This document shows, in pieces, positions 7,156-39,606 of a DNA stretch of 64,000 bases. Position 1 is the first letter of the stretch. The number at the start of each line of letters is the position of its first letter. A model generated the notes under the pieces. That model saw only the letters and a program-made list of their open reading frames with translations, was not told the DNA's origin and did no database searches. Source of the stretch: an uncultured bacterium (GTDB lineage Bacteria; Bacillota_I; Bacilli_A; RFN20; CAG-826); the NCBI GenBank assembly GCA_949299195.1, contig CASFZN010000018.1, positions 186,001 to 250,000 of the forward strand, read 5' to 3'. Position numbers and translations under genes: made by a program.

Positions 7156-7171
7156 GTTTCCACGTGGAAAC
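7156..7171. promoter_or_regulatory. parS-like palindrome, copy 1
   Basis: Perfect copy of GTTTCCACGTGGAAAC between the divergent GNAT and esterase genes, flanked by AAAAA on the left and TTTTT on the right. The surrounding 6986-7255 gap holds no gene I can see; it is rich in CTAG (five copies in about 100 bp) and AT tracts. Confidence 0.7.
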
Positions 7172-15501: not shown

Positions 15502-16410
15502 ATGGAAAAATTTGATGTAATTATTATTGGAGCAGGTCCAAGCGGAGTTACTGCCGCTATATATGCCGAAAGAGCAAATCTTAGTTATCTTTTACTTGAA
15601 GGATCAAGTATTGGTGGAAAGATTATTAATGCATATGAGGTCGAAAATTATCCTGGATTTTCTAAAATAGGAGGTGCTGAACTTGCACTTACTTTTAGAA
15701 AACAAGTAAAGGATTTAAATCTTTATTTTAAAAAAGAAAAGGTAGTAAGAATCGATAAATTAGATAAAAATTTCTTCGTTACAACCTCAAAAGATAAATA
15801 CCAAACTAGAAGTGTAGTTTTAGCAATTGGTACTAAAGAAAATAAACTTAATCTTCCTAAAGAAGACCGCTTTATGGGAAGAGGAGTTTCTTTTTGCGCA
15901 ACTTGTGATGGTGCTTTTTATAAAGATAAGGATGTTGTTGTTTATGGGGGCGGAGATAGTGCGATAACTGAGGCATCTTTTTTAGCACCAATTGCTAAAA
16001 CTGTTACTATTATTTCTCGTCATAAATTAAGAGGAGAAGATAAAAATATTAAAAAATTATTATCTCATAATAATGTTACTTCAATTCCTGATGCTACTAT
16101 CATCGAACTCATTGGTGATGAAACTTTAAAAGGAGTTAGAATTCAAGAAACATTAACAAAAGAAATTAAAGAAATTCCTTGTGATGGAGTATTTGTTTAT
16201 ATTGGATCTAAACCAGATGTTAAATCAATTTGTTATTTTGATATTTTAAAACCTAATGGTTATATCGAAGTTGATGATCATTTTAGAACTTCTACTCCTA
16301 ATCTTTATGCTATTGGTGATTGTATTGATAAAGAAGTTAGACAAATTGTTACGGCTACTGGAGATGGGGCTAACGTTATTCATACAATCATTAATGATTT
16401 AGATTTATAA
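15502..16410 (+). CDS. trxB: Thioredoxin reductase
   Basis: A 302-residue flavoprotein that uses NADPH to reduce thioredoxin. FAD motif GAGPSG is at residues 11-16, the redox centre CATCD is near 132-136, and the NADPH motif GGGDSA follows near 149. The C-terminal FAD contact LYAIGDCIDKEVRQIVTATG is intact. Length is close to the normal 305-320. AAAAGG precedes the ATG by eight bases. It is monocistronic, with a terminator just behind it. It could supply reducing power that reaches the double-thioredoxin lipoprotein, but nothing in the sequence links them directly. Confidence 0.95.
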   Translation: MEKFDVIIIGAGPSGVTAAIYAERANLSYLLLEGSSIGGKIINAYEVENYPGFSKIGGAELALTFRKQVKDLNLYFKKEKVVRIDKLDKNFFVTTSKDKYQTRSVVLAIGTKENKLNLPKEDRFMGRGVSFCATCDGAFYKDKDVVVYGGGDSAITEASFLAPIAKTVTIISRHKLRGEDKNIKKLLSHNNVTSIPDATIIELIGDETLKGVRIQETLTKEIKEIPCDGVFVYIGSKPDVKSICYFDILKPNGYIEVDDHFRTSTPNLYAIGDCIDKEVRQIVTATGDGANVIHTIINDLDL

Positions 16411-16416
16411 AGTGAT

Positions 16417-16447
16417 AAAACTTCCCTAAACATGGGAAGTTTTCTTT
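16417..16447 (+). terminator. Terminator of trxB
   Basis: AAAACTTCCC (16417-16426) pairs with GGGAAGTTTT (16434-16443) and is followed by a T-rich tract; it lies seven bases after the trxB stop. Confidence 0.85.
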
Positions 16448-16449
16448 AT

Positions 16450-16593
16450 TTATAAATCTTTAAGTAGAAAGTTTTTTAGTGAAATTACTTCAATTATTTT
16501 TCCTTCTATTTCTAAAGTTTTATCTTCATCATAAGTGACTATAATCAATTTATGTCTATCAAATATAACCTTTTTTAAAACTTCTTTATTCAT
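16450..16593 (-). CDS. 47-residue protein under a double operator
   Basis: A small ORF of 47 codons plus TAA. It starts MNKEVLKKVIFDRHKLIIV and ends ISLKNFLLKDL, with a central TLEIEGKIIEVISL that looks like a short beta-hairpin. The AGAGG ribosome binding site at 16605-16601 is well placed before the ATG, and a TATACT -10 box sits upstream, so it is probably a real gene. The segment GKIIEVISL vaguely recalls YolD-like proteins but at less than half their length, so I do not assign it. Two equal operator dyads lie over its promoter and ribosome binding site, suggesting tight repression. Confidence 0.55.
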   Translation of the reverse strand: MNKEVLKKVIFDRHKLIIVTYDEDKTLEIEGKIIEVISLKNFLLKDL

Positions 16594-16603
16594 AGATATT
16601 CCT

Positions 16604-16656
16604 CTGTCGAGTATATTCGACAGATTTCATATGATTTTGTCGACCATAATCGACAA
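16604..16656. promoter_or_regulatory. Two TGTCGA-N6-TCGACA operator dyads
   Basis: Dyad 1, CTGTCGA-GTATAT-TCGACAG, is at 16604-16623. Dyad 2, TTGTCGA-CCATAA-TCGACAA, is at 16637-16656. Their centres are 33 bp apart, about three helical turns, so two repressor dimers would lie on one DNA face. Dyad 1 contains the minus-strand TATACT box of the 47-residue gene and touches its ribosome binding site. The motif is not the standard Bacillus LexA box (CGAAC-N4-GTTCG). Confidence 0.7.
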
Positions 16657-16711
16657 GTTAATACTAAAAAATCACCAACAATTTCATTAGTCGTTTTCTT
16701 GTAATAAAAAA

Positions 16712-16727
16712 GTTTCCACGTGGAAAC
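16712..16727. promoter_or_regulatory. parS-like palindrome, copy 2
   Basis: Perfect GTTTCCACGTGGAAAC preceded by an A run but followed by AAATTTT rather than a T run. It therefore does not make a usual terminator for either strand. Confidence 0.7.
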
Positions 16728-16767
16728 AAATTTTCTTGATAATCATCAATGTTTTATTTTAATAATA

Positions 16768-16792
16768 AAAAAACTGGTCTTCCGACCAGTTA
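16768..16792 (-). terminator. Terminator of lysS
   Basis: On the minus strand AACTGGTC, loop GGAA, GACCAGTT, then TTTTTTTATT, starting four bases past the lysS stop codon. Confidence 0.88.
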
Positions 16793-16795
16793 ATT

Positions 16796-18280
16796 TTATT
16801 TATCTCTCATTGTTGGGAATAAGATGACCTCTCTAATTGATGGCATATTGGTCATAATCATGATTGTTCTATCAATTCCGATACCAATACCGCCAGTTGG
16901 AGGTAATCCATAATCCATTGCTTCTAAGAAGTCTAAATCCATTTCGTTAGCTTCATCGTCGCCTAATTCTTTTGCTTTTAATTGAGCTTCAAATCTAGCT
17001 TTTTGATCAATTGGATCGTTAAGTTCGGTGTATGCATTAGCCATTTCCCAACCATTTACATAAAGTTCGAATCTTTCAACAAAACGAGAATCTTCACTTT
17101 TTCTTGTTAATGGAGAAAGTTCAATTGGATGATGATAAACGAATGTTGGTTGAATTAATTCTGCTTCACATAATTCTTCAAATAAAGCATTTAAGAAATA
17201 ACCTGTGCTTGTCCAGTGAGATTCAACTTTAATTCCGTACTTTTTACATAATTCGCTAGCTTCCTCGATTGAAATATCACCTTTAAAGTCAACGCCTGTT
17301 TTTTCTTTAACAAGTTCACTCATTTCAACCCATCTCCATTTATTGGAGAAATCAATCATTTTTCCTTGATATTCAATAACTCTTGAGCCAACTACTTTAT
17401 CTAAAATTTCTTTATATAATCCTTCGACTAATTCTCCCATAGTCTCTAAATTACCGTAAGCTTCGTAAATCTCTACTGTTGTGAATTCAGGATTATGGCG
17501 AGTATCCATACCTTCGTTTCTGAATAATCTACCAAATTCATAGACCTTTTCTAAACCACCAACAATTAATTTTTTAAGCGGTAATTCAGTAGCAATTCTT
17601 AAATAGAAATCCTTATCTAAGGTATTATGATGAGTAATAAACGGTCTAGCATTAGCACCACCTAAAATAGGTTGTAAAACCGGAGTTTCAAATTCAGTGT
17701 AACCTAAATTATCAAGATAATTTTGCATTGTTCTGATAATTTTTGGTCTTGCTAAAGCGACTTTTTTACTTTCTTCATTCATAATTAAGTCGACATATCT
17801 ATGTCTATATCTTTCTTCAATGTCGGTTAAGCCATGGAATTTTTCAGGTAATGGTCTTAATGATTTAGTTAAGAAAGTGAATTTTTCTACCTTAATAGTA
17901 AGTTCGCCGGTTCTTGTTCTCATTAAATGACCTTCAAGTCCAACGATATCGCCGGTATCACATAATTTAAAGATTTCGTATGATTTTTCACCAACACTAT
18001 CGATAGAAATATATCCTTGAATCTTGCCTTCTTTATCTTGGATTGTAATAAAAGATGCTTTACCCATCTTTCTTAAAAGCATGATTCTTCCTGCAACAAT
18101 AACATGTATTGGAGAAGCTTCTAAATCTTCATTGGTTTTTCCTTCGCTTTTTGCTCTACAAGATGAAGAACTATCGGTTCTATCAAATCTTTTTCCATAT
18201 GGGTCAACACCTAAATCAATGAGTTTTTGTAACTTTTCTCGTCTTGATTTCTCTTGATCGGTTAATTCTATTTCTGCCAT
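16796..18280 (-). CDS. lysS: Lysyl-tRNA synthetase, class II
   Basis: A 494-residue enzyme that charges tRNA-Lys. An OB-fold anticodon-binding domain spans about 55-170 (VAGRIMLLRKMGKASFITIQ). The class II catalytic domain follows with motif 2 FGRLFRNEGMDTRHNPEFT near 245-263 and motif 3 GIGIGIDRTIM near 472-482. Length is normal. AAGGAG and AAAAGG lie just upstream of the ATG. It is the last gene of the minus-strand pth-to-lysS block, 88 bases after dusB, and has its own terminator. No T-box leader is visible upstream. Confidence 0.97.
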   Translation of the reverse strand: MAEIELTDQEKSRREKLQKLIDLGVDPYGKRFDRTDSSSSCRAKSEGKTNEDLEASPIHVIVAGRIMLLRKMGKASFITIQDKEGKIQGYISIDSVGEKSYEIFKLCDTGDIVGLEGHLMRTRTGELTIKVEKFTFLTKSLRPLPEKFHGLTDIEERYRHRYVDLIMNEESKKVALARPKIIRTMQNYLDNLGYTEFETPVLQPILGGANARPFITHHNTLDKDFYLRIATELPLKKLIVGGLEKVYEFGRLFRNEGMDTRHNPEFTTVEIYEAYGNLETMGELVEGLYKEILDKVVGSRVIEYQGKMIDFSNKWRWVEMSELVKEKTGVDFKGDISIEEASELCKKYGIKVESHWTSTGYFLNALFEELCEAELIQPTFVYHHPIELSPLTRKSEDSRFVERFELYVNGWEMANAYTELNDPIDQKARFEAQLKAKELGDDEANEMDLDFLEAMDYGLPPTGGIGIGIDRTIMIMTNMPSIREVILFPTMRDK

Positions 18281-39056: not shown

Positions 39057-39606
39057 CTTTTAATACCTCTTCTAATTCTTCATAACTTATATTTAAAAGG
39101 TTCAACTTCTTTAATAATTGTTTAGAATTGTTAAATCCTAAATAATATTTCTTAGAAATAATTTCTTTCTTTTTGTTTGAATCTTCTTGACCTGTTAATC
39201 CTAACTTATATAAATCAAAATGCGATAAAATAGGAGTTTTCAAGTTTCCACGTGGAAACTTTTTATATATAAAACGGTTATTTAGTGCATTTAATATATC
39301 TTCTTTATCGCCTTCTGCAACACCAACTTTATTCTTTTTAATAGATTTTTCTTTTGTAACATAAGCTTCGCTTACACCTTCACAATGTTCTTTAATTTTA
39401 TTTCTAATTTGAGCGCCTGGAAAATCAGGATCAGTTAATACGATGACTTCAATGCCTTTTTTCAAAACTTCATTGATATAATCATAATCTTTTTGTGAAA
39501 TCGAAGACCCATTTACACTATAAAATTTAGCATCAATGAATGAGCTTAAAAAATCGATATCAGTTTTACCTTCTACAACTAAAAGTGCGTTAATTATCGT
39601 CTTCAT
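39046..39606 (-). CDS. rnmV: Ribonuclease M5
   Basis: A 186-residue Toprim-domain nuclease that matures 5S rRNA. LLVVEGKTDIDFL has the first catalytic Glu (Glu12) and VLTDPDFPGAQIR the DxD pair. Its start lies inside the end of tatD (17-bp overlap) and its end overlaps rsmA. Residues 116-121 (KFPRGN) are encoded by a perfect copy of the GTTTCCACGTGGAAAC palindrome, including the CGT codon, which is rare beside AGA in this window. The DNA motif may therefore be conserved inside the gene. Confidence 0.92.
   Translation of the reverse strand: MKTIINALLVVEGKTDIDFLSSFIDAKFYSVNGSSISQKDYDYINEVLKKGIEVIVLTDPDFPGAQIRNKIKEHCEGVSEAYVTKEKSIKKNKVGVAEGDKEDILNALNNRFIYKKFPRGNLKTPILSHFDLYKLGLTGQEDSNKKKEIISKKYYLGFNNSKQLLKKLNLLNISYEELEEVLKDAN
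39244..39259. promoter_or_regulatory. parS-like palindrome, copy 5, inside rnmV
   Basis: Perfect GTTTCCACGTGGAAAC within coding sequence, so it cannot be serving as a normal terminator for rnmV. Left flank is CAA, right flank TTTTT. Confidence 0.7.

Follow-up and report, generated by a model that had tools for sequence, protein, structure and literature searches.

Two exact TGTCGA-N6-TCGACA dyads stand upstream of a 47-codon open reading frame (ORF) in the window, the whole 64,000-nucleotide stretch of DNA that we analysed (positions 186,001 to 250,000 of contig 18 in genome G000, which comprises 1.17 Mb in 22 contigs). These dyads are probably a pair of operators that belonged to an AAA_14/DUF4143 ATPase gene acquired horizontally; it is likewise probable that the family is self-repressing and that the locus is a relic of such a gene after an in-frame deletion.

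The ORF (P0001; 16450-16593, minus strand; 47 aa) lies between genes that we take, from their sequences, to be trxB (15502-16410, plus strand) and lysS (16796-18280, minus strand). When its product is aligned with six full-length ATPases, codons 1-14 (16552-16593, minus strand) match ATPase residues 1-14, the start of an N-terminal helix that spans residues 3-19 in the structural model, and the final 33 codons (16453-16551, minus strand) match residues 385-417, the end of the C-terminal domain. The closest full-length ATPase (L200; 70% identity) has 417 aa. Because only these two ends align, the ORF lacks about 370 of the 417 codons, with the frame preserved. A tblastn control recovered the N- and C-terminal ends of the ATPase separately at the ORF, and alignment and tblastn together support common descent of the remaining ends with AAA_14/DUF4143 ATPases. 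When 96 genomes were searched with the ORF product, three frames of 424-481 aa outside G000 matched strongly at their C-terminal end, and two of them also matched at the N-terminus; Pfam identifies the matched frames as AAA_14/DUF4143 ATPases. Searches of Pfam, NCBIfam and PADLOC with the ORF itself gave no family, and PHROG gave a single weak match (E 0.028). The AAA_14 domain, with Walker A and B, is absent from the ORF, that region having been deleted. A YolD/UvrX-like SOS protein was considered as its identity and rejected for want of a family match. The first-pass annotation had suggested a tiny stress peptide, toxin or regulator and had named a lack of conservation of the peptide as refuting it. 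That reading is not supported: the ORF is two ATPase ends joined in frame and not a conserved peptide, and the strong matches in the 96 genomes are parts of larger frames. The ORF is most likely the gutted relic of a common, uncharacterised ATPase gene.

We consider it quite unlikely that the 47 residues make up a small protein with a function, such as a dominant-negative or decoy, that remains under the old control. The frame, start codon and ribosome-binding site have been kept and both dyads are perfect, all of which would suit a working gene. However, the product lacks the AAA+ core, the winged helix and the greater part of the C-terminal domain, the putative -10 is weaker than in relatives, and the junction had one chance in three of being in frame. 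Moreover, none of 25 sibling genomes holds an intact counterpart; the best match (E 0.0056) has a stop inside. Since the binding and catalytic parts are gone in G000, the operators appear to be orphans, and the stub probably lacks a function.

The dyads and the ORF occupy a 385-nt gap between trxB and lysS (16411-16795) that is much shorter in some siblings. Among 26 genomes of the genus that were searched, 22, G000 included, have a lysS match. In four siblings lysS adjoins trxB, with about 40 nt between the stop codons and no dyads; in the remaining 17 genomes trxB is not beside lysS within the stretch read, which in one case is just 93 nt. Given the empty site in four siblings, the dyads and ORF are best read as an insertion. 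An erroneous join in this metagenome-derived genome might mimic the deletion, which is seen in one genome only, but we regard this as very unlikely: the ORF is closed and in frame, and no piece of the missing middle was found anywhere in G000, where the search returned one distant family member (33% identity) and none at E<=1e-70. A relic produced by genuine deletion remains our reading of the locus.

The proximal dyad, TGTCGAGTATATTCGACA (plus strand; 16605-16622), and the distal dyad, TGTCGACCATAATCGACA (plus strand; 16638-16655), have centres 33 bp apart, which confirms the dyads and the 47-residue gene described in the first-pass annotation. At two or fewer mismatches the window is expected to hold 0.74 such places; both observed copies match exactly, and they stand side by side a short way upstream of the ORF. 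The first dyad had been described as covering the -10 box and touching the ribosome-binding site. The contact stands, in that AGAGGA (16600-16605, minus strand) overlaps the proximal dyad by one base, and overlap with the -10 box is plausible. In the best promoter, aligned with those of relatives, the putative -35, TCGACA, is the right half of the distal dyad (16638-16643, minus strand) and is separated by 17 nt from a putative -10, TCGAAT (16615-16620, minus strand), which reads TATAAT or TAGAAT in three relatives (L017-L019). Helical phasing had also been proposed, and 33 bp amounts to 3.14 turns of 10.5 bp; strict phasing is not a general rule, because other spacing classes of this architecture, 28 and 40 bp, correspond to 2.67 and 3.81 turns. 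A separate regulon was to be sought by a genome-wide motif search. In G000 the only exact matches are this pair, the single place with one mismatch lies inside a reading frame, and places with two or fewer mismatches number 23, against 12 for a reversed control. There is no other credible copy of the dyad in this genome, and a separate regulon of the TGTCGA motif within it is therefore not supported.

The dyads could in principle function as RNA hairpins (an attenuator or a structure hiding the ribosome-binding site) or as terminators. A terminator-like stem is called at 16603-16624, and single TGTCGA-N6-TCGACA dyads at gene ends in siblings, with flanking A/T runs, are apparently terminators (L050, L051, L052). 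This explanation is nevertheless highly improbable for the present pair: the distal dyad is upstream of the likely transcription start, and many members of the ATPase family carry direct repeats, for example CCACTTTTTTGAAGT and ATTTGGTGCAAA, that have the same spacing, are not palindromic and would form no such hairpins.

A different perfect palindrome, GTTTCCACGTGGAAAC, occurs close by at 16712-16727 and again at 7156, 27122, 32409, 39244, 47878, 47991 and 54167, usually with A-runs and T-runs on its flanks. G000 has 37 exact copies, mostly on contig 18, and each of 25 sibling genomes has at most one. The copy at 39244 is inside a reading frame, so the palindrome is not only a terminator. It has the look of parS or Noc sites, or of a hairpin element that spread recently.

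Conservation of the dyads with full-length genes, at the same spacing and position, argues that they are operators of the gene they precede, as the first-pass annotation had supposed. Eight homologues were collected at E<=1e-70, six from 392 genomes (L055, L335-L339) and two from 96 relatives (L056, L057); L335 is identical to L200. In each of the six closest, which share about 46% identity or more among themselves, one TGTCGA-type site lies at -62 to -66 from the start codon and another at -29 to -33; the spacing is exactly 33 bp, and a site differs from the motif at 0-3 positions. The dyads in G000, at -62 and -29, fit these positions. One homologue from the same family as the window genome (L337) encodes an intact ATPase behind three TGTCGA-type operators, each 33 bp apart, from about -97 to -14. 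Two homologues with 39-40% identity (L338, L339) have no TGTCGA; in the same place they have TATGCAAA twice, 33 bp apart as counted by eye.

We also searched from the motif: genome_contigs, with genomes of about 85,000 species, was scanned for dyad pairs with a spacing of 23-43 bp. At least 117 stretches were found, a number that includes seven multi-copy arrays (Lachnospiraceae NK3A20, Actinomycetes coding repeats), Stenotrophomonas repeats and coding-region matches. Linkage was scored when an ORF matching a profile built from the ATPases lay within 400 bp downstream of the dyad pair. An ATPase is directly downstream in 45 of the 117 stretches listed, counting one weak, partial member of 181 aa with four half-site mismatches (L182), and just six further ATPase ORFs occur elsewhere in the loci of these stretches. 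Among the matches listed, linked pairs have spacings of 27-29 bp (12), 32-33 bp (23) or 40 bp (10) and no other, whereas those of unlinked pairs are scattered from 24 to 43 bp. By record title, linked loci include both bacteria and archaea, among them Bacillota, Treponema, Bacteroidota, actinobacteria, gamma- and deltaproteobacteria, Planctomycetes, Opitutia, Methanobrevibacter and Methanomethylophilaceae. Site copies lie over the gene's own promoter and are conserved with the gene in six of six closest relatives, and across the family repeats are in excess over control genes.

No adjacent ATPase was found in 72 of the 117 stretches listed, many of which are repeat arrays or coding repeats. 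The arrays of Lachnospiraceae NK3A20, with TGTCGA-type dyads about 41 bp apart, extend over many contigs of one genome and are not beside ATPases (L101, L107, L115, L168, L184, L189, L191, L205). Some well-formed dyad pairs also precede no ATPase, and 16 of 20 unlinked regions examined retain no trace of the gene. These pairs are mostly intergenic (L106, L123, L127, L128, L143, L171, L175 and others) and suggest that the dyads may also have a role independent of the ATPase. When 14 genomes with orphan pairs were searched for relatives of the ATPase, six contained none at E<=1e-8. The remaining eight provided 30 ATPase loci, out of 34 places listed, and none of these 30 has a TGTCGA pair; one unrelated place with two mismatches was seen. 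Sister ATPases as trans-partners of orphan pairs were rejected on the strength of those 30 loci. Orphan pairs are either relics that are common and long-lived or pairs with another role. Two dyad matches on viral contigs (L215, L216) have no ATPase.

More divergent ATPases (about 30% identity) have no TGTCGA pair; many have other repeats over their promoters. We compared 114 ATPase genes at 90 loci with 108 other genes that have at least 100 nt free upstream. A repeat or palindrome with z>3 precedes 44 of the ATPase genes and 10 of the controls (Fisher 1.9e-7), and the difference persists after removal of similar proteins (26/81 vs 10/107, p 9e-5). Strong direct repeats (score of at least 11) precede 27 of 114 ATPase genes and 4 of 108 controls; about three quarters of the ATPase genes (87/114) have none at this threshold. 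The spacing of the strong repeats is 33 bp in eight, 39-42 bp in 16 and other in three, so that 24 of 27 fall at 33 or 39-42 bp; the four controls, at 21, 22, 23 and 54 bp, do not. With three TGTCGA members excluded, five of 24 repeats are at exactly 33 bp, a distance fixed beforehand by the finding in the window, and these five sequences are unrelated (binomial p 1.3e-4). An independent replicate from other phyla, using the loci found in the search of genomes with orphan pairs, and from viral contigs gave strong repeats in 10 of 52 ATPase genes, all at 32-34 or 39-41 bp, and in one of 88 controls, at 40 bp. The W class of N-termini (9 genes) has its peak of mean self-similarity at 33 bp, and the Y class (86 genes) at 40-41 bp. 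These classes are crude patterns that left 16 of 114 genes in 'other' and placed L059 and L270, Y-type by our judgement, in the W class; L179, L125 and L192 have Y-type N-termini yet 33-bp spacing.

The upstream sequences diverge steadily with the protein. As protein identity falls from at least 80% to below 35%, the share of sampled pairs with a strong upstream match drops through 97, 57, 23, 10 and 4%. Members of one genome have different private repeats; G069, G064 and G093, for example, each contain several such members. A near-fixed distance combined with a freely changing sequence is what a regulator coevolving with binding sites at its own promoter would leave. A separate host repressor could instead control the ATPase genes and the stub, with the ATPase not binding its own promoter, and the recurrence of the TGTCGA motif across several subfamilies would agree with this. 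We think it rather unlikely. Different sites among the members of one genome make a single host regulator an improbable source, the motif accompanies the ATPase in both bacteria and archaea, and the genome of the window offers such a repressor no other credible copy. Self-control by the ATPase is the reading we retain.

The full-length relatives provide a candidate means of DNA binding. All three that were scanned (L017, L018, L048) pass both Pfam cut-offs, for AAA_14 (PF13173) and DUF4143 (PF13635), and match the PADLOC model PDC-S01 at E 1e-85 or lower. In the L200 model (mean pLDDT 92.7), an AAA+ core at residues ~34-153 is accompanied by a C-terminal alpha/beta domain. Helices at 227-239, 247-256 and 263-275, with strands at 279-284 and 297-300, are predicted to follow the order of a winged helix. 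A fold search, which covered mainly residues 4-337 of this model, gave as top VIA-align hits the archaeal AAA+ proteins 2qen and 2fna (Z 14.8 and 14.7; rmsd 4.2-4.4 over 262-263 residues, through residue 311). Plant NLRs and CED-4 came next, and Cdc6/Orc1 bound to origin DNA is among the Foldseek matches. The full-length relatives retain Walker A and B. Of the nuclease motifs, the glutamate and aspartate are kept, whereas motif III usually reads Q-x-[A/S/T/C]; counting the commonest types listed, 9 of the 114 relatives and 1 of the 38 dyad members have its lysine. The full-length relatives therefore generally lack the motif III catalytic lysine that marks an active PD-(D/E)XK nuclease. Placement of the C-terminal domain in that superfamily follows the motif columns and PMC12988326, which describes PDC-S01 as a fusion of an ATPase with a domain of the PD-(D/E)XK superfamily, ranks it fourth in frequency among prokaryotic defence systems (candidates) and states that validation is pending for most such candidates. 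According to PMC13356809, PDC-S01 is the individual locus found most often in rumen genomes, and in PMC4406477 a Thermus member, TT_P0211, appears among tabulated plasmid-dependent expression changes, annotated with 'HTH motifs' and an entry for transcription regulation. Our literature search on the family and the TGTCGA motif found no report of private paired operators of AAA_14/DUF4143 ATPases.

These observations suggest a mechanism. The parent ATPase would bind both dyads through its predicted winged-helix domain, and the bound copies, overlapping the -35 and -10, would shut off its own promoter. Each subfamily would have its own operator sequence and a near-fixed distance from copy to copy. 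In G000, an in-frame deletion would have removed the codons for the AAA+ core and the winged helix, among others, and left the operators with the stub. With somewhat less assurance, we lean towards extending this model to the AAA_14/DUF4143 ATPases as a superfamily of self-controlling AAA+ switches: each would have two or three private operator copies in its promoter, at a distance largely set by protein subfamily (32-34, 39-42 or 27-29 bp) and with a sequence free to diverge along with the protein, a nuclease-like domain mostly without the catalytic lysine, and a tendency to leave orphan operators upon gene loss. If this is true, the conserved geometry of private operators would provide a first testable molecular activity, sequence-specific binding to the own promoter, for the PDC-S01 family. 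Genome data alone would suggest operator sequences for many members, and operator swaps could be tested. The locus also advises caution, since a tiny ORF behind strong operators can be what a deletion has left.

Several known systems invite comparison. The Bacillus LexA/SOS box is likewise a palindromic operator over the promoter of a small gene, but its sequence is unlike the dyad in the window and G000 has no regulon-like set of dyad copies. SSO1545 (2fna), PABY2304 (2qen), Orc1/Cdc6 and the STAND ATPases share the predicted arrangement of an AAA+ core followed by a winged-helix unit. Identity is only about 15%, and the ATPase described here adds a C-terminal domain and sites at its own promoter. 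Compared with PDC-S01 and other AAA_14 plus DUF4143 ATPases, the ORF in the window keeps just the two ends and matches none of their models. Restriction-modification controller (C) proteins, toxin-antitoxin repressors and phage repressors are self-controlled modules. Like the ATPase genes, they have paired sites over their own promoter, and each module has a site sequence of its own. Their regulators are small proteins that bind DNA, whereas the sole candidate in the module described here is an ATPase of about 400 aa.
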